64,000 nt of DNA from Pseudoalteromonas sp. 3D05. GTDB lineage: Bacteria > Pseudomonadota > Gammaproteobacteria > Enterobacterales > Alteromonadaceae. Below the pieces are notes generated by a model. It was not told where the DNA came from, searched no databases, and saw only the letters and a program-made list of their open reading frames with translations. Each line of letters begins with the position of its first letter. The first letter of the stretch is position 1. The stretch spans positions 1-64,000 of the forward strand of contig NZ_PDUS01000005.1 in the NCBI RefSeq assembly GCF_002723455.1, in the 5' to 3' direction. The position numbers were made by a program, and so were the translations under genes. Below, in pieces: positions 10,786 to 30,557 of this stretch.

Positions 10786-12039
10786 ATGGACAAAAAAATA
10801 GAACGCTCATTTACGCAAAAGTATTTTAAAAAGTTTACTTTTGCAGCTCTTACTTTAGGTGTTGCTGCGGCTGCATATGGTTTTACGCAAAGCAGTGATA
10901 CAGGCCGTAGCCAAAATATCGAGCGTAGTGGTTTAACGGTTAGCACGGTTAAACAAGGTGCCTTTAAAGATGCCTTAAGCTTACGCGGTCAAGTTGTGCC
11001 AAAAACCAGTATTTATCTCGATACCATTGCTGGTGGTCAAGTGGAAGAGCGATTAGTCGAGCAAGGTGAATATGTTGAGAAAGGCCAACCACTCGTGCGC
11101 TTAAGCAACACTAACTTACAACTTGATGTAATGAGCCGTGAAGCACAAGTTACCGAGCAGCTTAACTTTTTACGTAATACGCAGATGATGATGGAAACCA
11201 GCCGGTTAAACTTACGCCGCGACTTATTAGAAATCGAATTAAAAATAACTCATTTAACACGTCGATTAAAACAAACTAAACCTCTGGTTAAAAGTGGCGT
11301 ATTGGCGCAAGACCAACTAGCTGAGCTCGAAGAAGATTTAAATTATTACCAAGCCCGTAAAGAGCTCACCCTTGAGCGTCAAAAACAAGAAAATTCAATC
11401 CGTGAAGTGCAAGTGGCGCAGTTGTCAGACAGCGCTAAAATGCTCGAAAAAAATCTGCAATTTGCGCGTCGAAATCTCGACAACTTATTAATCAAAGCAC
11501 CGGTATCGGGTTATTTAAGCGAGCTTGATGTGGAAATTGGCGAATCTAAAAACAGTGGTGCGCGGTTAGGCCAAATAGATATTCCTAATGAATATAAATT
11601 AGTGGTGCGCATGGATGAATTTTATTTAAACCAAGTACAGCGTGACATGGCGGTAATGATTGAGCTTGAAAGCGGCACGGTGAATGCAAAAGTGAGCAAA
11701 ATCGATAGCCGCGTACAGCAGTCACAATTTCAAGTAGAAGTGGACCTACCCAGTAACACTAAAAGCATTAAGCGCGGCCAAAGCATTGATATTGAGTTAA
11801 TGCTAGGGGATGACAATAACAATGCCTTACTGCTTAAACGCGGGGCTTTTTTTACTAACTCGGGCGGTAACTGGGTTTATGTAATCGAACAAGGCGGTGA
11901 TAAAGCAGTGCGCCGTGATATCCGCCTAGGCAAAAAGAATCAACACTATTTTGAAGTGCTTGAAGGGCTCAATGCTGGGGATCAAGTAATTACCTCAAGC
12001 TACAGCAACTTTGACAAAGCACAGCAATTACAATTTTAA
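10786..12039 (+). CDS. HlyD/MacA-type periplasmic adaptor subunit
   Basis: A 417-residue membrane-fusion protein. One N-terminal membrane helix (about 16-33) is followed by a first biotinyl-lipoyl half (GGQVEERLVEQGEYVEKGQP), a long coiled-coil hairpin (about 115-225), a second lipoyl half (LLIKAPVSGYLSELDVEIGE) and a beta-barrel domain. It should link the inner-membrane transporter encoded next to an outer-membrane channel. No TolC-like gene lies in this cluster, so the housekeeping TolC is presumably used. First gene of the operon, 11 bases before the ATPase gene. Confidence 0.88.
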   Translation: MDKKIERSFTQKYFKKFTFAALTLGVAAAAYGFTQSSDTGRSQNIERSGLTVSTVKQGAFKDALSLRGQVVPKTSIYLDTIAGGQVEERLVEQGEYVEKGQPLVRLSNTNLQLDVMSREAQVTEQLNFLRNTQMMMETSRLNLRRDLLEIELKITHLTRRLKQTKPLVKSGVLAQDQLAELEEDLNYYQARKELTLERQKQENSIREVQVAQLSDSAKMLEKNLQFARRNLDNLLIKAPVSGYLSELDVEIGESKNSGARLGQIDIPNEYKLVVRMDEFYLNQVQRDMAVMIELESGTVNAKVSKIDSRVQQSQFQVEVDLPSNTKSIKRGQSIDIELMLGDDNNNALLLKRGAFFTNSGGNWVYVIEQGGDKAVRRDIRLGKKNQHYFEVLEGLNAGDQVITSSYSNFDKAQQLQF

Positions 12040-12050
12040 GGATAATAACA

Positions 12051-12755
12051 ATGATCAAACTAACTAATTTAAGCCGCGTATTTCGTACTCAAGATGTTGA
12101 AACAACAGCGCTAAGCAATATCAACTTAACTGTAAACGAAGGCGATTTTTTAGCGATAATGGGGCCATCTGGCTGTGGTAAGTCAACGCTGCTTTCTATT
12201 TTGGGTATGCTTGATTCACCGACCTCAGGCAACTTTGATTTTGCGGGAACTGACATTGCAGGCTATAGCGAAAAGCAACTAGCAGAGCTACGTAAAGAAT
12301 CAATTGGCTTTGTATTTCAAAGCTTTAACTTGATTGATGAGCTAACAGTTTATGAAAACGTAGAGTTGCCATTGCAGTATCAAAAAATATCAAAAAGTGA
12401 GCGTAAGCAACGCGTAGAAACCATTTTAAAGCGCGTGGGTATTGATCACCGCGGCGAGCATCTACCACAGCAACTGTCGGGTGGTCAGCAGCAGCGGGTA
12501 GCCGTTGCGCGTGCATTAGTGATTAATCCCAAGCTAATTTTAGCCGATGAGCCAACCGGTAACCTCGATTCTAAAAACGGTGATGAAGTGATGGCGATGC
12601 TACGCGAATTAAACCGCGAGGGCACCACGGTTATTATGGTGACTCACTCAGAAAAAGAGGGTGCCTATGCTGATCGCTTAGTGCGCCTATTGGATGGCCA
12701 AGTGATGCTTGATAAAGCAAATATTGCGCAGCAAGCCGTTGTTGAGGTTGCTTAA
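12051..12755 (+). CDS. ABC transporter ATPase, MacB/LolD type
   Basis: A 234-residue nucleotide-binding subunit with Walker A GPSGCGKS (38-45), Q-loop at Q90, signature LSGGQ (142-146), Walker B LILADEP (162-168) and the switch His in VTHSE. It belongs to the group that pairs with FtsX-like permeases and works by mechanotransmission instead of classic transport. AAGGATAA gives a good ribosome site. The permease gene starts one base after its stop, so expression is coupled. Confidence 0.92.
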
Positions 12756-12756
12756 T

Positions 12757-15153
12757 ATGTTTATTAATTATTTAGTCACTGCTTTAAGATCATTTAAGCA
12801 ACAAAAACAGCATTTTATCCTAAACCTTTTAGGGCTAAGTATCGGCTTAGCTGCGGCAATTTTAGTGGCACTGTTTGCACAAAACGAGTTGTCATACGAT
12901 AGTCAGCAACCTCACGCTGAACGTGTTTACCGTGTAGGCCAAGATTACTCAAAGTTAGGGTTATCAGTTATTCCTATTTTCAATTATTCTCAAGCGGCAA
13001 AAGCCACTGAATATAGCCAAGTAGAAGAAGTGTTTGGTTTGACGATGGTATCGCTGACTCGAGAAGCTATGGTTGACGTGCAGTACCGGGATCAGGGTTT
13101 TAAACTTAATGACTTGTATGGGGCAACGCCAAATATTGAGAACTTTATCAATATAAACACATTGGCAGGGGATTTAAAAAATGCAATGAGTACACCTGAG
13201 AGCTTGGCTCTAAGTGAATCTGAAGCACTGCGAATTTTCGGTACAATAAATGTTATTGGTAACACGCTACAGCACGAACAAGGGCAATATACTGTACGGG
13301 CGGTGTTTGCAGATTTACCAAGCAATACTCACTTTGCATTTAAAAACCTCGTATATGTAAAACATGATCCAAATAACCTGATGGTTAATAGCAGTTATGT
13401 TTATATGCGTTTGGCGCCGCAAGCAGATCCAAAAGCACTCGCTGATACATTGTCTAAACAGTACTTCAATGGGCAAATGGCGGGTCAAGTTGCCATTGAG
13501 TTACACCCATTACTAGACTTACATTTAACAGCAAAATCGCCATTTGAAATGAAAGCAGGCGGCGCAAAGCAAGTTGTAACGATTTGTGCAGGGTTGAGCG
13601 TGTTACTTATTTTGATTGCTGGCTTTAACTTTATCAATATGACGGTGGCACAGTCTGCAAAGCGCGCCAAAGAAGTAGGGGTGCGCAAAGCACTTGGCGC
13701 AAGTAAGCTGCAGTTAGTAACACAGTTTTTAGCTGAATCTACTTTGGTTGCTCTATTGTCGATGATTATTGCCTGTGTGTTAGTGGAACTGTTATTGCCA
13801 AGCTTTAACCAGCTGGTCGATCGTGAACTGATAGTGAGTTATTTTTCAGCCTTTGGTTTGGGCATTATGGCTGTTGTTATTGCTGTAGGCATACTTGCAG
13901 GTTTGTACCCGGCATTGTTTATCTCATCATTTAGCGCAAAACGAGTGTTAAGTGGCGATTTACAACGCGGTAATACGGCCATTTGGGTACGTAAATGTTT
14001 ATTGACCTTGCAAGCATCATTAGCAATCGGTTTGATCATTGCATCGGTTACGTTGTTAAAACAATTATCTCACTTACAAAGTCTTCCTTTAGGCTATCAA
14101 ACGCAGCAACGCTTAGTGGTTTCAGAGTTGCCGGTGCAATCGGTATTTACGCAGCAGCCTAGCGCACTAATTAATCGCTTGACGGCTATAGATGGTGTAG
14201 AGCAAGCAACGATTATTGATACTCGTTTAACCGTTTCAATTAATAATACATTACAGCCTACTTGGCCCAATGGTGAATTTTCAGGTGGAATAACCCCTGT
14301 GATAGGTTCTGGTTTTGATGTTGTAAAAGGGCTAGGCCTTACGCTAATTGCTGGTAGAGACTTTAGCCGTGAGTTTTCCTCAGACTGGGCGACGCGAGCA
14401 AACGGGGTTACAACAGTAGGTACAATTATTACAGAAACCGTTGCCAAGCAGGCTGGTTATAGCAATGTGGCTGATATTGTTGGACAAAAAATTAAAGACA
14501 CAGGGCGTAATGTGGATATGCAAGTTGTTGGTGTTGTAAAAGATGTAAAGGTTGGTAATGCACAAGATGCGAATTCTAACATTATGTTTTTATGTGGTTA
14601 TAACTATTTAACACCAGTATCTGAAGTAATTTTAACCGTGAACGTGCAAAACCTCCCTGCTATAAAACAAGCAGTGATCACAGCTTTAGCTGAAGTGTCT
14701 AATATTTATGAGCCAAAAATAAACCTGCTAGCTGAAAACTATAAAGCGGTATTAAAAGGTGATGAGCGTGTTTCTCTTGTCGTACTTATATTTACTGGCC
14801 TTGCAGTGTTCTTAACTTGCTTAGGTACTTTTGGTTTAGCTTCATTTGCCACGATTCGTCGCCAAAAAGAAGTCGCTGTACGCAAAGTGCTTGGCGCATC
14901 ACGCATCAGTATTATGAATCTACTGGCAAAAGAGTTTTTAATTTTAGTGCTTGGCAGTGTGGCCATAGCATACCCGCTAACTTATTGGCTGGTGGGTGAC
15001 TGGCTCGCAAACTTTAACGAGCGGGTTGATCAAGCGCTATGGGTTTATTTGGTTGCAGCTTTGAGTGTTGCTGCGATCACTTGGCTGACGGTTGCAAGCA
15101 TCGCCTTTAAAGCCGCCAGTACGAGGCCATCGCTGACGTTACGTTATGAGTAA
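12757..15153 (+). CDS. FtsX/MacB-type ABC permease, first copy
   Basis: A 798-residue permease built of two halves. Each half has a membrane block, and the family motif appears twice: RAKEVGVRKALGAS and RQKEVAVRKVLGAS. The N-terminal helix is followed by a large periplasmic MacB_PCD-like domain (about 45-270), and a second such domain lies between the two FtsX blocks. The start is ATG 12757, one base after the ATPase stop, with GAGG upstream. A longer reading frame inside the ATPase gene is not needed. It forms the transporter with the ATPase and with the second permease. Substrate unknown; relatives export peptides, macrolides or lipoproteins. Confidence 0.9.
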   Translation: MFINYLVTALRSFKQQKQHFILNLLGLSIGLAAAILVALFAQNELSYDSQQPHAERVYRVGQDYSKLGLSVIPIFNYSQAAKATEYSQVEEVFGLTMVSLTREAMVDVQYRDQGFKLNDLYGATPNIENFININTLAGDLKNAMSTPESLALSESEALRIFGTINVIGNTLQHEQGQYTVRAVFADLPSNTHFAFKNLVYVKHDPNNLMVNSSYVYMRLAPQADPKALADTLSKQYFNGQMAGQVAIELHPLLDLHLTAKSPFEMKAGGAKQVVTICAGLSVLLILIAGFNFINMTVAQSAKRAKEVGVRKALGASKLQLVTQFLAESTLVALLSMIIACVLVELLLPSFNQLVDRELIVSYFSAFGLGIMAVVIAVGILAGLYPALFISSFSAKRVLSGDLQRGNTAIWVRKCLLTLQASLAIGLIIASVTLLKQLSHLQSLPLGYQTQQRLVVSELPVQSVFTQQPSALINRLTAIDGVEQATIIDTRLTVSINNTLQPTWPNGEFSGGITPVIGSGFDVVKGLGLTLIAGRDFSREFSSDWATRANGVTTVGTIITETVAKQAGYSNVADIVGQKIKDTGRNVDMQVVGVVKDVKVGNAQDANSNIMFLCGYNYLTPVSEVILTVNVQNLPAIKQAVITALAEVSNIYEPKINLLAENYKAVLKGDERVSLVVLIFTGLAVFLTCLGTFGLASFATIRRQKEVAVRKVLGASRISIMNLLAKEFLILVLGSVAIAYPLTYWLVGDWLANFNERVDQALWVYLVAALSVAAITWLTVASIAFKAASTRPSLTLRYE

Positions 15154-15237
15154 GTAAAATTTATTAGCCAAAACCATGGTCTATCGGAGTAACAGGTAGG
15201 CCATTTTTGGGTGAGAACAAGGTCTTATAGGTTAGAT

Positions 15238-17652
15238 ATGTTGATATCACATGTAACAACAGCATTTAGAGTATTCAAGCAATATAAGCTTTATTCGTTA
15301 TTGAGTGTCTTAGGGTTAAGTATTGGTCTTGCTGCAGCTCTGTTAGTGGCGTTATTCGCAGAGTATGAATTGTCGTTTGATGAAATGCAGCCCGAGCACC
15401 AGCAAGTTTATCGTCTGCATGTTGATGTAAAGGTACCGGGTTTAGAAGAGATTCCCTTAACGATTGTAAGCATTGCGCAAGCAGTGTCTTCACGTAGTGA
15501 TGTAAGTGGCTTATTGGTGCTGGCAGATGTGGTCGATAGTGATTTATTTACTGATCATATTAAAGTGGCTGGGCAAGCGTTTAAGCTGCGAAATGTGTAT
15601 GGCACTTCGGCCAATTTACGTGATTTTATTCACCTTAATGTGATGGCTGGCAATCTTGAACAAGCGCTCTCAGAGCCCAATCAAATCGCCTTGAGTGCAA
15701 GTGAGGCTGTAAGGTTATTCGGGAGTGTTAGCAATGCGTTCGAACAAACCTTATTGATGGGCGAGAAAAGTGTCACTGTGCGTGCTGTTTTTAATGACTT
15801 ACCCGATAACAGCCACTTTTTGTTTCATGCTTTAGTGTCTGTTGATTTCACCGAACATAACGATATATCGAGTTATGTTTATCTAAAAACTCAGCAAGGA
15901 GCTGATTTAAAAGGCATAGAAAAGCAGTTAGCTAGAAGTCTTATTGAAAAATATCAATTAAAGAATAGCCAACTTGAATATCGTTTAGTGTCGATGCGAG
16001 ACGTGTATTTTAAAGCCCATTCTCCCTTTGAATTTAAACCTGGCGGGTCGGCTTTTTTAGTGAACTTGAGCCTGGTATTGAGCGTGTTACTACTCGCCAT
16101 TGCCGCAGCCAATTACATTAATATTGCGGTGTCGCAATTGCTTTACCGCAGCAAAGAAATTGCCATGCGCAAAACCTTGGGGGCCAGTAAGCGACAATTA
16201 ATACTCCAATTTTTGTTAGAAGCTTTGCTAATGGTTTCCCTTGCTACGGTGTTAGCGTTGTGTTGGGTTGAGATGTTATTACCAAGTTTTAGTAGCTTTG
16301 CAAACCGCCCATTGCAGCTAGTTTGGGGCTGGTCACAATTGCTAGCTATATTGGGTGTGGTGTCTTTATTGGCTTTTATATCTGGTGCTTATCCGGCTTT
16401 TTGTGTGGCACGCGCACCGCTAAAAATATTACTTGCAGGGCAATTGCAAACAGGTCAGATGGTGCGTAAAGGTTTATTAGTCTTTCAAGCAGCCATGGCA
16501 ATGGCTTTAATTGTTTGTACGTTAGTGAGCTTGCAACAGTTAAAGTTCTTGCAAAGCTTGTCGGTTGGTTATGATGCGACAGATCGCATTGTGATACACG
16601 ATTTAAGCAGCAAGCAATTGATGATAAAAGAGCACGCGATACTCAATGAGATCCGTGCGCTGCCCGGTGTCGTGCAAGTGACCACCACGGACACAGATTT
16701 AACCGACAGCATTCTTGAAAGCTATTATTTTCGCTGGCCAAACGGCTATGAAGAGAGCGAACTGCCACCGACCATAGGTACAGGCTTCCATGCCGTCGAA
16801 ACCTTGGGTCTGACATTACTTGCTGGGCGAGATTTTTCACCGCAATTTCAAAGCGATTGGTTGCATTATGCCAATGAAGAGTCAAATACGCGGCAGGGTG
16901 AGGATGCATCTCAGGTAATGGCCATTTTGGTGACCGAACAAATGGCAAAACGTGCTGGCTATGAGAATGTGAGTGAGGTAGTGGGACTGCAAGTTCAAGG
17001 GCTCTACCGCAATATCAATGCAACCATTGTTGGCGTAGTAAAAGACATTAAAGTGGGCTCGGCAAAAGACGACTGGCTGCCTGTGTCATTTTCAGCAGGG
17101 TATAGCTCACAATCAACAATTAGATTAGTGATAAGCACCGAGCAAGCAAACTTTCCTCAATTATTGAATCAGCTACGAGAGCTTTTAAAACAATTTAATT
17201 TAACCGTCGAACCCCAATTTAGCCTAATGCAACAAGATTTAGCCAAAGTTTATCGTGTCGAGCAAGACTTGTTTGTGCTTATTCGAAATTTCTCTGCGCT
17301 GGCGATGCTTTTGAGTTGCTTAGGTTTATTTGGACTAGCGGCATTTGCAGCAAAACGTCAGCAAAAGCAATTAGCCATGCGAAAAGTGTTGGGCGCAACC
17401 CGTTTAAATTTAGTTAATCTACTTGCCCGTGAGTTTTTAATCATAGTGTTCGCAGCGGCGGCAATTGCTTTACCTCTAGCTTATTGGCTAATGGATAACT
17501 GGTTGCAAGGTTTTAACGACCGTATTGAGCAAACTATTTGGGTATATGGCTTGGCGGGGCTCATTGTGGGTGCGTTTACTTGGCTGACCGTTGCAAGTCT
17601 TGCATTTAAAGCTGCCAGTACACGGCCAGCGCTTGTTTTACGCGACGAGTAG
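15238..17652 (+). CDS. FtsX/MacB-type ABC permease, second copy
   Basis: An 804-residue paralogue of the preceding permease with the same plan: RSKEIAMRKTLGAS and RQQKQLAMRKVLGAT mark its two FtsX blocks, and both proteins end in a KAASTRP motif before the last residues. The N-terminus aligns from ATG 15238 (MLISHVTTAFRVFKQ against MFINYLVTALRSFKQ). A GTG at 15211 is in frame but would add nine residues not seen in the paralogue. The tandem genes are probably an old duplication and may form a heterodimer over the single ATPase. A REP pair follows. Confidence 0.88.
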   Translation: MLISHVTTAFRVFKQYKLYSLLSVLGLSIGLAAALLVALFAEYELSFDEMQPEHQQVYRLHVDVKVPGLEEIPLTIVSIAQAVSSRSDVSGLLVLADVVDSDLFTDHIKVAGQAFKLRNVYGTSANLRDFIHLNVMAGNLEQALSEPNQIALSASEAVRLFGSVSNAFEQTLLMGEKSVTVRAVFNDLPDNSHFLFHALVSVDFTEHNDISSYVYLKTQQGADLKGIEKQLARSLIEKYQLKNSQLEYRLVSMRDVYFKAHSPFEFKPGGSAFLVNLSLVLSVLLLAIAAANYINIAVSQLLYRSKEIAMRKTLGASKRQLILQFLLEALLMVSLATVLALCWVEMLLPSFSSFANRPLQLVWGWSQLLAILGVVSLLAFISGAYPAFCVARAPLKILLAGQLQTGQMVRKGLLVFQAAMAMALIVCTLVSLQQLKFLQSLSVGYDATDRIVIHDLSSKQLMIKEHAILNEIRALPGVVQVTTTDTDLTDSILESYYFRWPNGYEESELPPTIGTGFHAVETLGLTLLAGRDFSPQFQSDWLHYANEESNTRQGEDASQVMAILVTEQMAKRAGYENVSEVVGLQVQGLYRNINATIVGVVKDIKVGSAKDDWLPVSFSAGYSSQSTIRLVISTEQANFPQLLNQLRELLKQFNLTVEPQFSLMQQDLAKVYRVEQDLFVLIRNFSALAMLLSCLGLFGLAAFAAKRQQKQLAMRKVLGATRLNLVNLLAREFLIIVFAAAAIALPLAYWLMDNWLQGFNDRIEQTIWVYGLAGLIVGAFTWLTVASLAFKAASTRPALVLRDE

Positions 17653-25554: not shown

Positions 25555-25590
25555 AAAACCCGTAATTAGCTTAACTAATTACGGGTTTTT
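25555..25590 (+). terminator. Rho-independent terminator of the helicase gene
   Basis: AAAACCCGTAATTAG (25555-25569), five-base loop, CTAATTACGGG and a T-run. The hairpin may also act for the convergent gene at 25638. Confidence 0.9.
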
Positions 25591-25637: not shown

Positions 25638-27032
25638 TTAATGTTCGTGGTCGTGTTCTTCCTCTTGTGCAATACCTAACCAAGTAATAGCTGCTGGTGG
25701 GAATGTAAGTTCTAGTTCACCTTCAATTTCTAAATCTTCTAGGTGTACTTGCACAACGTGCTGAGCAATAGGGTCGGCTACATAAGCGAAATGACCATTT
25801 TGTGCCACTGTCATACTAAACTTCATGCCTTCAGGCATGGTTGTTACGTCTTGTTCAGTGATATCAACTTGGCCTGCTAGTTCCCAGTGCATGTGGCCGT
25901 CGTGCGTATGTGCTTCCAGCACGTTTAAAAAGCCTAGGCTGTCTAAAACTAAAAAGTGCTCGCCATTCGCTGAGAAAGAGTAAGACACTGCACTTGCGCC
26001 ATCGGCTAGTTGCCATTCTAATTCTTCCATTTCAGCTTCGCTCGGATTGATGCTTAGCATTACAGCAGGGCCACCGCCATGGCCAGAGGCAATACCAATA
26101 AAGGTTTCGCTGGCTTCATGGCCGTAAATTCTACCAATACGTAAGTCACCTACCACATCAATGTTTACCACTTTTTCAGCTTCGTATTCGTCGTCGTGTT
26201 GATGCGCTAATAGCACGCCATCGCTACAGCCAAATGCAATATAGTCGTGGTTTTGTGCTGCACCGTGTAAATCAGGGCAAGTAAGCTCTAATGTTTGTTC
26301 AAGCTCATATTCGCCATCATGAAAATGATAAACACCCACTTGGTCAGGCAGGATTTTAGCGTTTGATGTACTTTGAGCATCATCGCGGCGAATGGTCGCT
26401 AATAAGTGCTCACCACGCGGCTCTGCCACGCCGTGCATATTAATATCGTAGCTTATACCAGGAAGGGTATCTGATGCGCTCGTGATATCGTTATCTGTTA
26501 ATACTTCAACAGACGCAACCGTACCTGACTCTGCATCGCCATCGTAAAATATGGCTAACTTACCATCGTGTTTAACTAGGTGTGTTGGGCGGCTCCCGCT
26601 CGTTAGCTCATAACTGATAGCTGCCGGGCTTTGCTTGTAATCATGTAAATGCTCACCATGATCTTCACGCCATAAGCCACCGTCGATAAAGCCTAAATAA
26701 TCTTGTGCGCGAGAAGCGATCACTGCATAACGAAAATCAGGTGATGACGACAGTGTGTTTGAATCATTGTTAAGGGTAAAGGTTTCAAGCAGCTCATTAT
26801 CGTCTAAGTCAAAGAAGCTTGCCGCGTTGCTGTCGCTAGCTAGTACGACAAGTCTACCCAATGAATCAATTGTATATTCATCGCCGTGGTCATGGTCGTC
26901 ACCATGATCATGTTCATCTGGTACTTCAATAGGGTCTTTCTCAACGATATTTGTTTCAGCATCGCCACAAGCGGTGATTAATGTGCCGCTTATTGCCAGT
27001 GCAATTAGTTTTAATTTGAATAGTTTAGTCAT
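25638..27032 (-). CDS. His-rich AztD-like zinc-binding lipoprotein
   Basis: A 464-residue lipoprotein (lipobox LITAC, Cys22). An acidic, His-rich segment follows (residues about 39-52, DEHDHGDDHDHG), then a predicted beta-propeller, and the C-terminus ends in EEEHDHEH. The propeller resembles the periplasmic zinc chaperone AztD, for example CPDLHGAA with FGCSDGVLL and the repeated His-containing strands. In known systems AztD passes zinc to an ABC binding protein. Here it is co-transcribed with a zinc-type TonB receptor (31-base gap) and close to zur, so it likely holds or passes zinc taken up by that receptor. The AztD link is from memory of family patterns. Confidence 0.75.
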   Translation of the reverse strand: MTKLFKLKLIALAISGTLITACGDAETNIVEKDPIEVPDEHDHGDDHDHGDEYTIDSLGRLVVLASDSNAASFFDLDDNELLETFTLNNDSNTLSSSPDFRYAVIASRAQDYLGFIDGGLWREDHGEHLHDYKQSPAAISYELTSGSRPTHLVKHDGKLAIFYDGDAESGTVASVEVLTDNDITSASDTLPGISYDINMHGVAEPRGEHLLATIRRDDAQSTSNAKILPDQVGVYHFHDGEYELEQTLELTCPDLHGAAQNHDYIAFGCSDGVLLAHQHDDEYEAEKVVNIDVVGDLRIGRIYGHEASETFIGIASGHGGGPAVMLSINPSEAEMEELEWQLADGASAVSYSFSANGEHFLVLDSLGFLNVLEAHTHDGHMHWELAGQVDITEQDVTTMPEGMKFSMTVAQNGHFAYVADPIAQHVVQVHLEDLEIEGELELTFPPAAITWLGIAQEEEHDHEH

Positions 27033-27063
27033 AATAATTTCCTTTATTTATAATTTTTAGCGC

Positions 27064-29493
27064 TTAAAAATAACCGCGAATACCCAGTGCAAAGCTACGA
27101 CCAGGACGTGGCGCTATATTCTTTAAAAATGAGCTATGAACGCGCGCTTCGGTGTCTGTTAAGTTAGTGCCACGTAGATACAGTGAAACATCTTGGTTTA
27201 GCACTGATAAATCATATGAAACGCTGGCATCAAGCATGGTGTAACCATCTGTAGCTGTTTCTTCTGACGCGATGCGGTCTTGTTCTTGATAGCGAGTTAC
27301 ATGGAGGTGCGCACTCAGCTTATTTGTTTGATAGCTAAACTCAGTACCAAAACGTAGCGGTGGTGTGCGTGGTAAATCGCCACCGTCTTTAAGGCGGGCG
27401 CGTACGTAATCTGAGAATAAATCTACTTTAAATTCATTAGTTAACTGCCATGCAACTTGGGCTTCAAAACCATGTAAAACTACGTCATCTGTTTTGAATA
27501 AATAAACAGGCAGTTCAGATGAGTGATCATGCTCGTCACCGTGGTCATGCTCACCGCTGTGGTCGTGCTCATCACCATGGTCGTGGCCGCTTTCGGCGTA
27601 TAGGCCTGTGTCGATTTGGTAATAATAATTGTCGACTTGGTTGTAGAAAGCATTAAGAATGAAACCGATATCACCTTGGGTTTTACGAAACGTTAAATCA
27701 ATATTGTTTGCTGTTTCTAGGTCAATTGCTTGTTCAGATAAACCTAAATGGCCGTCTTCATGAATATCAAATAGTGCGCCTACTTCATAAGTAGCTGTGC
27801 CTATGTGAGGCCCGAATGATAATAACTCTGAGGCAGAAGGGGCACGCTCAGAACGAGATACCGATAAACCCAAGTTGTAACTAGGTGCAAAATCCCACAC
27901 CACACCAGTTGATAAACTGACTGGAGTAAACTCTTGCTCTACATCAAATACGCGAATGATATCAGCGTGTTCTTCGTGGCTGTGCTCATGGCTATCGTGG
28001 TCATGATCAACATTTTCATCATGTGCGTGTGCATCAATGTTTGGTAATAGTACGTTGTCTGCATCAATAGTTACACGTTCAACACGACCACCTAATTGCA
28101 CTAAAAAGTCACCAAAGTGTCTCTCTTCCATTAGTGCTATAGCAAAACTTTGCGTTTGTGAAGGTGGTGTAAATGCCTCTGAGCCTTGTGCTTTTACATC
28201 ACTGTGTTTGTAATGAAAGCTCAAACCACCATTCCACTGCGCAACCGGGTTATGCATTAAGTCTACGCGTAACTCATTGGTTTCGTTTTCAAACGTGGTG
28301 CCCACTGCACCATGTTCAATTTCAGCATGTTCGTAATCTGTAAAACCTGCACGTAGGTTTACTTTATTAAGCCATTGATTATATAGGTTATATTCACCAA
28401 GCAACTGCACTTTAGTTTGCTCTAAATCGGCATATACGCTTTCCTCAGCGCTATGATCTTCTTCGCCGCCATGAGTGTGTCCAGGAATACCATATTGACG
28501 ATTAAATTGTTCAACAGCTATCCCAACAAAACCTTGGTCAAATAGATAGCTAGTTCCAAGGGTGAAACCATCAGATTCTTCACTGCTGTTTGCAACGGTG
28601 TAATCGCCACTATGCTTTTCATGGTCATCGTGGGCTAATTCAGCTGCCACAGGTATTTCATAGTCGTCAGCTTCACGCCAAAAGGCATCGGCATAAAAAG
28701 CGAATGAATCAGTACCGATAGTGGCATTAAACGAGGCTACTTTTTGATTATCAACAGAGTTATGTTCAAGGTTCCATTCGCCGCGAGTTGTGCTGTCTGT
28801 TGGTACACGGTTATCAACTACATTAACAACACCGCCAATTGCACCGCTGCCATAAAATAAAGTGGCAGGGCCACGTAATACTTCGATTTGTTTTGCGGTT
28901 GATGCTTCTGATGCGACGGAGTGATCAGGGCCCACTCTTGACACATCACTGACATCGAGGCCGTTTTGAGTAATGAGTACGCGAGGACCGCTTAAGCCGC
29001 GAATGATGGGTGTACTGGCTACTTTTGCATGAAAGTTGGTATTAACACCTGGCAGTTTTTCAAGACTATCGCCAAGGGTTGCAGCTTGCTGGCGTCTTAA
29101 TTGTTCGCCTGATAAAACGCTAACTGGTGAGGCGGACTCCATTGCCGACATATGAATTGGGGTGGCTTCAATGTCAATTACTTCAATTGGTGAACGTTGT
29201 AAGTTAAAAGTAATAGATTGATTTTCATTGTTGTCAAATGAGATGTCGCGATGAAGGTGAGCATAACCAGGAGCGGTAATGTGAAACTCTTTTAATCCAT
29301 CTTTTAAATCGGTGATGACAAATTTACCATTTTTATCCGTGGCGACTTTCACATCTGAGCCCTCAACTTCCACAGTGGCGTTGATAACTACTTTGCCTTG
29401 TTTGTTTAACACAATGCCTTCTATGGAATTTGCAAGCACACTTGCTGGTAATAAAGCTGCAATTAGTACAGCTAATTGAGATCTTCGTTTCAT
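27064..29493 (-). CDS. ZnuD-like TonB-dependent zinc receptor
   Basis: An 809-residue outer-membrane receptor. It has a signal peptide (about 1-22), a carboxypeptidase-regulatory-like extension (GIVLNKQGKVVINATVEVEG), a plug domain (about 115-225) and a beta barrel that ends in FALGIRGYF with terminal Phe. Two loops are extremely His/Asp-rich (HDENVDHDHDSHEHSHEEH and GHDHGDEHDHSGEHDHGDEH), as in ZnuD-type zinc receptors. The start is ATG 29493, preceded by AAGGTAG. Two Zur-box candidates lie just upstream, and zur is divergent. Zinc is the likely substrate; copper or nickel is less likely. Confidence 0.85.
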   Translation of the reverse strand: MKRRSQLAVLIAALLPASVLANSIEGIVLNKQGKVVINATVEVEGSDVKVATDKNGKFVITDLKDGLKEFHITAPGYAHLHRDISFDNNENQSITFNLQRSPIEVIDIEATPIHMSAMESASPVSVLSGEQLRRQQAATLGDSLEKLPGVNTNFHAKVASTPIIRGLSGPRVLITQNGLDVSDVSRVGPDHSVASEASTAKQIEVLRGPATLFYGSGAIGGVVNVVDNRVPTDSTTRGEWNLEHNSVDNQKVASFNATIGTDSFAFYADAFWREADDYEIPVAAELAHDDHEKHSGDYTVANSSEESDGFTLGTSYLFDQGFVGIAVEQFNRQYGIPGHTHGGEEDHSAEESVYADLEQTKVQLLGEYNLYNQWLNKVNLRAGFTDYEHAEIEHGAVGTTFENETNELRVDLMHNPVAQWNGGLSFHYKHSDVKAQGSEAFTPPSQTQSFAIALMEERHFGDFLVQLGGRVERVTIDADNVLLPNIDAHAHDENVDHDHDSHEHSHEEHADIIRVFDVEQEFTPVSLSTGVVWDFAPSYNLGLSVSRSERAPSASELLSFGPHIGTATYEVGALFDIHEDGHLGLSEQAIDLETANNIDLTFRKTQGDIGFILNAFYNQVDNYYYQIDTGLYAESGHDHGDEHDHSGEHDHGDEHDHSSELPVYLFKTDDVVLHGFEAQVAWQLTNEFKVDLFSDYVRARLKDGGDLPRTPPLRFGTEFSYQTNKLSAHLHVTRYQEQDRIASEETATDGYTMLDASVSYDLSVLNQDVSLYLRGTNLTDTEARVHSSFLKNIAPRPGRSFALGIRGYF

Positions 29494-29510
29494 TTGACTA
29501 CCTTGTTGGA

Positions 29511-29554
29511 TGTTATACTGTATCAATTGTGTTTGAAATGTTATAATGTATCAA
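29511..29554. promoter_or_regulatory. Two Zur-box candidates between the zinc receptor and zur
   Basis: TGTTATACTGTATCAA (29511-29526) and TGTTATAATGTATCAA (29539-29554) differ at one base and are 28 bases apart. Each is an imperfect palindrome of the TGTTATA-type AT-rich dyad known for gammaproteobacterial Zur. They lie 18-61 bases before the receptor start codon and upstream of zur, so one control region could serve both directions. Confidence 0.75.
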
Positions 29555-29611
29555 GTGAAAGTTAAAGAATGTTATTTGCAATACCTAAGATGGAGCTATA
29601 AGGAGCAAGGA

Positions 29612-29659
29612 ATGACAGAGATTGAACCCAAACCACAGCAGTTAGTGTGGGTAATGTGA
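29612..29659 (+). CDS. Possible 15-codon leader ORF overlapping zur
   Basis: ATG at 29612 has the best ribosome site in this region (AAGGAGCAAGG at 29600-29610) and encodes MTEIEPKPQQLVWVM before a TGA at 29657-29659. That stop overlaps the GTG start of zur at 29656 in a classic GTGA junction. The zur frame has no good ribosome site of its own, so the short ORF may drive coupled translation of zur. The alternative is a frameshift, natural or from sequencing, in an N-terminally longer Zur. Confidence 0.45.
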   Translation: MTEIEPKPQQLVWVM

Positions 29660-30132
29660 ATAAACAGCAACTAAAAAAAACAATTCGGTTTGCCAATGCA
29701 AAGTGTGAAGCCTCTGGCAAAAAACTGACAGAAAAACGTCAACAAGTATTAGAAATTCTACTGCATGCAAAAACGCCATTATCTGCTTACGAACTGACTG
29801 ATCAGTTTAACAAGGTGATGGGGGGGCCTATTTTGGCGATGTCGGTATATCGGATTTTAGATGTTTTAGAGTCTGTAGGTTTAGTACATCGATTAAAATC
29901 AGAAAATAAGTTTATGGCATGCAGTCACCTTAATGCTGGTTGCCAGCATCAGCTCTCGATGTTTTTAATTTGCAGGTCATGTAACAAAGTTGTTGAAATG
30001 GATGATGCAAACGACAAAGTGAAGGCTTTATTCAATCAAATAGAGGTAACGGGATTTACACCAAGTGGGTCACAGTTAGAAATTTCGGGACTATGTTGTC
30101 AATGTAAACTTAAGCCGCTTAAAAGCAATTAG
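29656..30132 (+). CDS. zur: Zinc uptake regulator Zur (Fur family)
   Basis: A Fur-family repressor of about 158 residues. The N-terminal winged helix (LTEKRQQVLEILLHAKTPLS, then AMSVYRILDVLESVGLVHRL) is followed by a dimerisation and metal domain with Zur-like ligands: CSHLNAGCQHQ, a first pair ICRSC and a C-terminal GLCCQC. The start is uncertain: GTG 29656 overlaps the stop of a 15-codon upstream ORF; GTG 29647 is three codons longer. It is divergent from the zinc receptor operon and 11 bases before a MerC-family gene. Zur with zinc should repress both directions. Confidence 0.88.
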   Translation: MNKQQLKKTIRFANAKCEASGKKLTEKRQQVLEILLHAKTPLSAYELTDQFNKVMGGPILAMSVYRILDVLESVGLVHRLKSENKFMACSHLNAGCQHQLSMFLICRSCNKVVEMDDANDKVKALFNQIEVTGFTPSGSQLEISGLCCQCKLKPLKSN

Positions 30133-30143
30133 AGGAAGCTAGA

Positions 30144-30557
30144 ATGAAATCAACACAAAGTGTAATGGATAAGCTTGCAATAGGACTTTCGATGGTGTGC
30201 ACCGTGCATTGTTTTGCAACCCCTATTTTACTTACACTGTTACCTAGTTTTGCAGCACTACAACTAGATAATGAACAGTTTCATTTGTGGATTTTAGTAG
30301 CCGTTATCCCTACCAGTGTGCTTGCATTGAGCTTAGGCTGTAAAAAGCATAAACGCCTGCGTTATATGGTTTCAGGCTTCATAGGCGTAATGTTAATGGT
30401 GCTAGCTATAATATTTGCAGAAGCGTTTTTGGGTGAGTTGGGCGAAAAAGGGTTTACCCTCGTGGGCGCGGCTTTTATCGCTATTGCACATTGGTTTAAT
30501 TATCGCCAGTGCTTTGCAAAGAGTGATGATTGCCCATGTTCAACTAATGCTTCGTAG
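30144..30557 (+). CDS. MerC-domain small membrane protein
   Basis: A 137-residue inner-membrane protein with four predicted helices. The first helix carries the MerC-type Cys pair in VCTVHCFATP. A Cys pair at the C-terminus reads DDCPC. MerC proteins are known mercury importers, but homologues without other mer genes are often found beside zur. Here no mer operon exists, and the gene is 11 bases after zur with a good GAGGAAG ribosome site, so a role in zinc movement is the better guess. Substrate unproven. Confidence 0.8.
   Translation: MKSTQSVMDKLAIGLSMVCTVHCFATPILLTLLPSFAALQLDNEQFHLWILVAVIPTSVLALSLGCKKHKRLRYMVSGFIGVMLMVLAIIFAEAFLGELGEKGFTLVGAAFIAIAHWFNYRQCFAKSDDCPCSTNAS

Follow-up and report, generated by a model that had tools for sequence, protein, structure and literature searches.

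The window analysed here is a 64,000-nucleotide stretch of the genome of Pseudoalteromonas sp. 3D05, and its positions 25638-30557 hold two divergent gene pairs. All four genes lie where the initial annotation had placed them. The features of the region are as follows.

25555-25589, plus strand only: terminator-like hairpin of 15 pairs, from a consensus scan only, between the lipoprotein gene and a convergent helicase gene
25638-27032, minus strand: AztD-like beta-propeller lipoprotein, 464 aa (profile, PDB sequence search and predicted model)
26265-26267, minus strand: site-1 H256 of the lipoprotein (alignment with 6ck1)
26433-26435, minus strand: site-1 H200 (alignment with 6ck1)
26580-26582, minus strand: site-1 H151 (alignment with 6ck1)
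26643-26660, minus strand: site-2 positions H125, H128 and H130 (alignment with 6ck1)
26967-26969, minus strand: lipobox Cys22 (sequence reading)
27064-29493, minus strand: ZnuD-like TonB-dependent receptor, 809 aa from a probable ATG at 29493; the frame is open to 29526
29511-29525, no strand assigned: Zur-type box 1, two mismatches to TGTTATANTATAACA
29539-29553, no strand assigned: Zur-type box 2, two mismatches to TGTTATANTATAACA
29647-30132, plus strand: divergent Zur-like Fur-family regulator, 161 aa, FUR domain
30144-30557, plus strand: MerC-family membrane protein, 137 aa, PF03203, four long helices in the model; candidate inner-membrane zinc carrier

On the minus strand, the receptor gene is followed after 31 bases by the lipoprotein gene; on the plus strand, 11 bases separate the stop of the zur-like gene from the merC-family gene. 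Profile, PDB and Pfam matches bear out the initial assignment of the receptor to the ZnuD type, of the lipoprotein to the AztD type and of the fourth protein to the MerC family.

The best NCBIfam match of the receptor is ZnuD, at 378 bits; the cut-off of 950 is not reached, and we therefore call the protein ZnuD-like only. Its best PDB match is ZnuD (4rdr, E 2.5e-57), followed by BtuB (E 3.3e-10). It shares with the Neisseria ZnuD zinc-piracy receptor, its closest solved structure, the TonB plug and barrel, the link to zinc and His-rich loops. There are two such loops, at residues 487-511 and 634-660, and 42 His overall, as expected for the His-rich receptor first described. The present protein differs from the Neisseria receptor in scoring far under the naming cut-off, in carrying an N-terminal carboxypeptidase-regulatory-like domain, in sharing an operon with an AztD-like lipoprotein and in being one of two ZnuD-like proteins encoded in the same genome. 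The second such receptor (L223:6788-9286, contig C45) has a long His/Glu-rich insert, and its gene has two Zur-type boxes (L223:6754 and 6792, two mismatches each).

For the lipoprotein, the AztD profile search proposed in the initial annotation returned AztD as the best NCBIfam match (E 2.7e-26), but at 92.1 bits against a curated cut-off of 400; we therefore name the protein AztD-like rather than AztD. Sequence searches of the PDB matched AztD structures 6ck1 (E 1.9e-16) and 6cmk (E 7.1e-13). When the AlphaFold model (pLDDT 88.6) was compared with the PDB using Foldseek, the nine best matches were all AztD chains (E 2.3e-24 to 4.4e-19, target TM 0.80-0.83), and the next was NirF (E 5.2e-11). 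The predicted structure is that of the AztD beta-propeller. The protein also has Cys252/Cys269 and a His-rich C-terminus, and is ~90% identical over the best segment to a relative in P. haloplanktis.

The zinc ligands of AztD are, in 6ck1 numbering, His124/His167/His218 at site 1 and His99/His102/Asp104 at site 2, the latter being the transfer-competent zinc site, according to the accessible text of PMC6689063. By alignment, 6ck1 His99, His102, His124, His167 and His218 correspond to lipoprotein His125, His128, His151, His200 and His256. We aligned the window protein with 46 of 50 non-redundant relatives. These five His are invariant in all 47 rows, and the Asp104 column, inside site 2, holds His (His130 here) in 46 and Asp in one. 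The zinc-binding positions of AztD are, on this alignment, kept, and site 2 has one extra His. The lipobox Cys is present in 47 of 47, with Gly (45) or Asn (2) at the +2 position, and 45 of 47 have a His among the last four residues, where AztD has the ligand His408, although His408 itself is not aligned. AztD-family lipoproteins have already been noted in Gram-positive species, and the Gram-negative relatives of AztD are predominantly periplasmic, again as far as the accessible part of PMC6689063 goes.

The closest known counterpart is AztABCD of Paracoccus denitrificans. The chaperone AztD and the lipoprotein share the beta-propeller, three pore His, the hairpin His-x-x-His, a Cys pair and a C-terminal His, and both are linked to a Zur-like gene. 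Here, however, the protein is a lipoprotein, Asp104 is replaced by His, the partner is a TonB receptor and the genome has no ZnuA or ABC-3 match; neither in the locus nor in the genome was an AztABC-type operon, with a ZnuA-type SBP and ABC genes, found for the lipoprotein gene. Some further observations concern AztD-like proteins in other genomes. Relatives encoded beside ABC genes (L030-L033) likewise show a lipobox-like N-terminus. In three of them, beside ABC/ZnuA genes (L031-L033), the site-2 hairpin is lost and the pore His positions are kept, the opposite of the pattern expected if zinc were handed on to a ZnuA-type protein. Two AztD-like genes are split into two open frames and are possible pseudogenes (L036:8760-10054 in G001; L034:8492-9463 with 9250 in G244).

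The regulator encoded at 29647-30132 has a Pfam FUR domain above the cut-off, and a Zur-type operator adjoins its own gene. Its nearest PDB match is 7dh7 (E 4.8e-24), named only as a Fur-family regulator; E. coli Zur is matched at E 1.4e-10. The Zur equivalog is its best match, at 67.8 bits, with the cut-off of 167 not reached. A second Zur in the same genome (L002:1453-1887, contig C43) is more canonical, at 162.3 bits against the same cut-off, and is 30% identical to the window protein, so that one genome encodes two Zur-like regulators. The gene initially called zur is thus a Zur-like gene, but a divergent second one, the more canonical Zur lying on contig C43. Among relatives, the zur-like genes of L111, L113 and L115-L117 encode proteins that have lost the Cys of the F-M-A-C motif of the window protein and kept the CxxC pairs; this loss possibly alters metal sensing.

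Two Zur-type boxes lie between the divergent operons, as had been proposed. Taken alone, the scan of the window is weak, with two boxes found against 0.66 expected and 13 of 100 shuffles doing equally well, and the strict 23-base Zur palindrome has no match in the window at up to three mismatches. We therefore looked for support to the whole genome and to relatives. Scanning the 4.47 Mb genome with TGNTAYANTRTANCA gave four sites, and the reversed control none. Two are those described here, and the third is immediately upstream of where the second ZnuD-like gene probably starts. The fourth (L222:8108-8122, contig C8) is 237 bases before a gene for a 218-aa lipoprotein without known zinc link; the stretch preceding the site resembles 6S RNA. 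No transport-type gene is among the ORFs nearest to this fourth site. Since the third site belongs to a ZnuD-like gene and the fourth has no transporter, the MerC-family protein is the only inner-membrane transport-type protein adjoining a site in this genome. In relatives, 74 of 78 loci have at least one box (up to two mismatches) between -300 and +60 relative to the first gene; two of the 80 loci described below were left out because upstream sequence was lacking. Box density in these loci is 4.24 per kb at the first gene and 0.032 per kb elsewhere. Both divergent operons would be controlled by a Zur-type repressor binding at these putative boxes.

To our knowledge, MerC is known only for mercury. 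The window protein matches Pfam MerC (PF03203) at 99.7 bits against a gathering cut-off of 27.6, and its model (pLDDT 81.8) is helical, with four long helices. The model has no PDB match at E up to 0.001, and with no solved MerC relative, the transport path would have no structural precedent. We aligned the protein with 42 of the 44 MerC proteins encoded in the islands of relatives. D9, S16, C19, H22, C23, P27, H47, G81, E101 and H116 are invariant in all 43 rows, C19, H22 and C23 forming a C-x-x-H-C motif. Mercury-operon MerC belongs to the same Pfam family, is likewise about 140 aa long and has a Cys pair in helix 1, but it lies beside MerA, has no Zur-type box (0 of 5 mercury-operon MerC loci; none in 15 MerA loci) and lacks H22, H47, E101 and H116, keeping D9 and having a His at position 69; the alignment of helix 1 is uncertain, and the mercury sequences have no His in the stretches concerned, there and at 116. 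The mercury group comprised 10 rows, of which one is by eye a short MerF-like protein (L191) and four are identical short rows, so that five full-length sequences remain. In context, without a mer operon, and in sequence, the window protein is not of the mercury-resistance class. A tblastn search of plasmids with it returned 11 records at E up to 10, and the annotated features listed for them include no mer operon.

Non-mercury MerC is present in 30 of the 36 genomes of a panel, with neighbours that include Zur, DUF1826, COG0523 and ZrgA. It adjoins ZrgA in four of these genomes (G183, G016, G204 and G214) and is divergent to it in a fifth (G282). Position 47 is His in 55 of 55 MerC rows from zinc neighbourhoods and Glu in 16 of 18 others; in a MerC tree the two exceptions group with the zinc-neighbourhood set, though the basal split is weak (65/95). 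An initial division of panel MerC into zinc-linked and unlinked proteins was dropped, because most solitary genes of the Glu47 type also have a Zur-type box. Of 21 solitary loci, 16 have such a box no more than 200 bases upstream of the gene (L041, L043, L045-L047, L050, L052, L054-L058, L061, L199, L200 and L205), and the other five have none within that distance. Box density is 3.31 per kb in those 200 bases, as against 0 in the rest of the same loci. The neighbours of the boxed solitary genes have no evident zinc link. Of 18 His47-type MerC genes away from ZnuD-AztD, 17 have a box at some point in the stretch and 10 have one no more than 200 bases away; seven of the eight without a close box have one before the same-strand upstream gene. 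MerC of other families across the class has a box within 300 bases in 7 of 27 and anywhere in the stretch in 10 of 27. The groups of the MerC tree differ in neighbourhood but not clearly in Zur control. MerC as partner in a zinc module, as suggested initially, is strengthened by these boxes at MerC genes outside the cluster.

High-affinity zinc import in Gram-negative bacteria has been described as the work of ZnuABC or of ABC systems of the Zrg and Azt types, ZIP-type carriers providing a further route. The genome of the present strain is estimated to be 100% complete, and genome searches found no match in it to ZnuA, ABC-3 permease, ZIP or ZrgA; a ZnuABC-type importer, with its ZnuA SBP and ABC-3 permease, was accordingly not encountered, in line with the initial claim for importers of this kind. 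One full-length Nramp is encoded, and the stretch read upstream of its gene has no box at up to three mismatches. Of the 24 genomes that represent the family in the panel, 23 lack a ZnuA match and 23 have MerC. Over all 36, non-mercury MerC occurs in 26 of 28 ZnuA-less and 4 of 8 ZnuA-bearing genomes (Fisher p 0.014, a value that ignores kinship, in a non-random panel). ZIP is matched in 20 of 36, in 10 of them above the cut-off. Another genome from this genus, G244, gave no match for any of MerC, ZnuA, ABC-3, ZIP and ZrgA and, like the present one, has Nramp, so another route must exist. Three genomes with the ZnuD-AztD pair (G052, G016 and G041) have no Nramp match.

The V. cholerae protein ZrgA is taken to serve the ABC transporter ZrgBC (PMC9820375, accessible part). 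Six of the 80 relatives' loci encode a ZrgC-like ATPase (E below 1e-50) close to the island, three of them together with a ZrgB-like permease; of the five panel genomes that pair ZrgA with MerC, two have such an ATPase close to the pair (L201 and L204). MerC is therefore not always the sole candidate for the inner-membrane step. Two ABC ATPases in the window are weaker matches to ZrgC (E 3e-34 and 1e-21), and their best named models are of exporter or FtsE types, below cut-off. Elsewhere in the window, positions 10786-17652 encode an adaptor, an ABC ATPase and two large ADOP/MacB-type permeases, a set resembling that for darobactin export, with models below cut-off. ZrgA is encoded in 27 of the 80 island loci and is, as in V. 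cholerae ZrgABCDE, a zinc protein of the periplasm that does not belong to the classical ZnuA type. The island differs from ZrgABCDE in that 26 of the 27 loci with ZrgA also encode MerC and only 5 of the 27 a ZrgC-like ATPase (E below 1e-50), and the present genome has no ZrgA.

A relative of the lipoprotein (E up to 1e-5) was found in 18 of 295 genomes of the order, the present one included. The AztD-like gene follows a ZnuD-like gene in eight, adjoins ZnuA and ABC-3 genes in four and lies beside Zur and COG0523 in one; in the other five, none of eight other searched families occurs in the stretch read around it. The initial picture of an AztD-type lipoprotein without an ABC importer holds here and does not extend to those four genomes. 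A ZnuA match is absent from all eight genomes with the ZnuD-AztD pair.

Named genomes and MAGs, scanned separately, yielded 160 confirmed relatives, of which 80 loci were kept, from Pseudoalteromonas, Alteromonas, Paraglaciecola, Thalassotalea, Colwellia, Catenovulum, Rheinheimera, Bowmanella, Alishewanella, Teredinibacter, Cellvibrio and others; in one the gene is split into two frames (L171), and another has a short extra fragment (L108). ZnuD lies directly upstream of the AztD-like gene in 75 of 80, so the arrangement is kept in other genera. The loci further contain MerC (59), Zur (37), CobW (31), ZrgA (27) and DUF1826 (20). Profile searches found ZnuA-like and ABC-3 genes in none of the 80, the profiles having been built from few sequences (5 hits for ZnuA, 6 for ABC-3). 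The gene-order survey suggested at the outset thus supports the receptor-lipoprotein pair and, to a lesser degree, its association with MerC. MerC is absent from 21 of 80 loci in the stretch examined, and ten have ZnuD-AztD and no other zinc gene within that stretch. One of these ten (L147, apparently panel genome G121) has a boxed MerC elsewhere (L198). Clustering of Zur with COG0523, DUF1826 and an outer-membrane receptor has been described (Haas 2009, PMC2770081, in the part accessible). COG0523 and DUF1826 likewise belong to the island in relatives; in contrast, a word search of the available text of that paper found no MerC (author names aside), TonB, ZnuD or lipoprotein.

On balance, we favour a Zur-controlled zinc-uptake relay made up of the receptor, the lipoprotein and a MerC-like inner-membrane carrier that replaces ZnuABC. 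Computed gene content, motif, predicted fold, ligand positions, conservation and the lack of a classical-importer match form its basis; from there we infer the direction of import, zinc as the cargo of MerC, direct hand-over, the topology of the lipoprotein and Zur binding. In zinc shortage, the Zur-type repressor would leave the two boxes and both divergent operons would be switched on. The ZnuD-like receptor, driven by TonB, would move zinc across the outer membrane. Anchored in this same membrane, most likely on its periplasmic side, the lipoprotein would bind the zinc through the pore of the propeller and the His-rich hairpin site and prevent its loss. The MerC-like four-helix protein would then carry zinc across the inner membrane in place of ZnuABC, with Cys-x-x-His-Cys and the conserved His and Glu as the likely path. 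In relatives, COG0523 GTPase, DUF1826 and ZrgA proteins would often act in the same set. As for the wider proposal that non-mercury MerC-like proteins form a so far overlooked family of inner-membrane zinc importers, controlled by Zur, which took the place of ZnuABC throughout the Alteromonadaceae and are partnered, depending on the branch, by an AztD-like lipoprotein and ZnuD-like receptor or by ZrgA, we see the chances as evenly balanced. The markers of this family are C-x-x-H-C, His or Glu at position 47, His116 and mostly Glu101.

The strongest rivals to the relay are a lipoprotein that faces the outside and an inner-membrane step by Nramp or another system. Surface lipoproteins gather substrate for other TonB receptors, and the present one could do so for the ZnuD-like receptor, with MerC as a separate step. 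Its coupling to the receptor is indeed tighter than that to MerC (75 against 59 of 80 loci), its tail is rich in His and the residue at +2 is Gly or Asn, not Asp. Asp at this position retains lipoproteins in the inner membrane in E. coli, a rule that may not hold here. However, an anchor of this kind is not in itself a sign of cooperation with a receptor, given the lipobox-like N-termini of the relatives beside ABC genes, and the Gram-negative relatives are predominantly periplasmic (PMC6689063, accessible part). We regard an outward-facing lipoprotein as improbable. Only a little better is the standing of a lipoprotein that merely stores or buffers periplasmic zinc, with no direct hand-over to MerC and genes that are simply co-regulated: the three His at the transfer-competent site-2 position, found in 46 of 47 proteins, would be needless for a mere store, on the account of that site in the available text of PMC6689063.

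Least unlikely of the alternatives, but still doubtful, is that zinc crosses the inner membrane by Nramp, a Pit-type carrier or another ABC system rather than by MerC, which would have some other Zur-controlled job, as a sensor, a COG0523 helper or a carrier of another metal. This would accommodate the Nramp of this genome, the G244 genome with no MerC or searched importer other than Nramp, the frequent proximity of COG0523 to MerC and the ZrgC-like ABC genes near some MerC genes. It fits less well with the unboxed Nramp gene, with the three genomes that have the ZnuD-AztD pair and no Nramp match, and with boxes at many non-mercury MerC genes whatever their neighbours and at none of the mercury ones. 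That the locus is a remnant of mercury resistance, its MerC taking up mercury beside zur by chance, has only the Pfam name in its favour; the MerA model's best match in the genome reaches 388 bits, below the cut-off of 454, and mercury MerC differs at H22, H47, E101 and H116 and has no boxes. MerC is, moreover, kept in the island in 59 of 80 loci, and on this conservation and the Zur-type boxes we rejected the mercury reading as having next to no probability.

Returning to the relay, its single parts are already known; to judge from the sequences and the literature surveyed, their association in the absence of an ABC importer and the placing of MerC in the Zur regulon appear to be new. Neither was found in the accessible parts of the open-licence PMC literature, including PMC5786701, PMC4176598, PMC5387054 and PMC12193353, and the accessible open-licence text on AztD and TonB yielded no link between AztD and receptor genes. 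Among the matches listed for MerC and zinc in the open-licence literature, none deals by title with zinc import by MerC, and no paper on zinc and the Zur regulon of Pseudoalteromonas was found there.

If the relay is real, it would be a new zinc route into bacteria, without the usual ATP-driven zinc pump. AztD-type chaperones would then be seen to function independently of ABC importers, and MerC would acquire a nutritional role. In this marine-rich family, 23 of the 24 panel genomes have no ZnuA match, yet Zur-type boxes are abundant, and a small four-helix protein would fill this gap.
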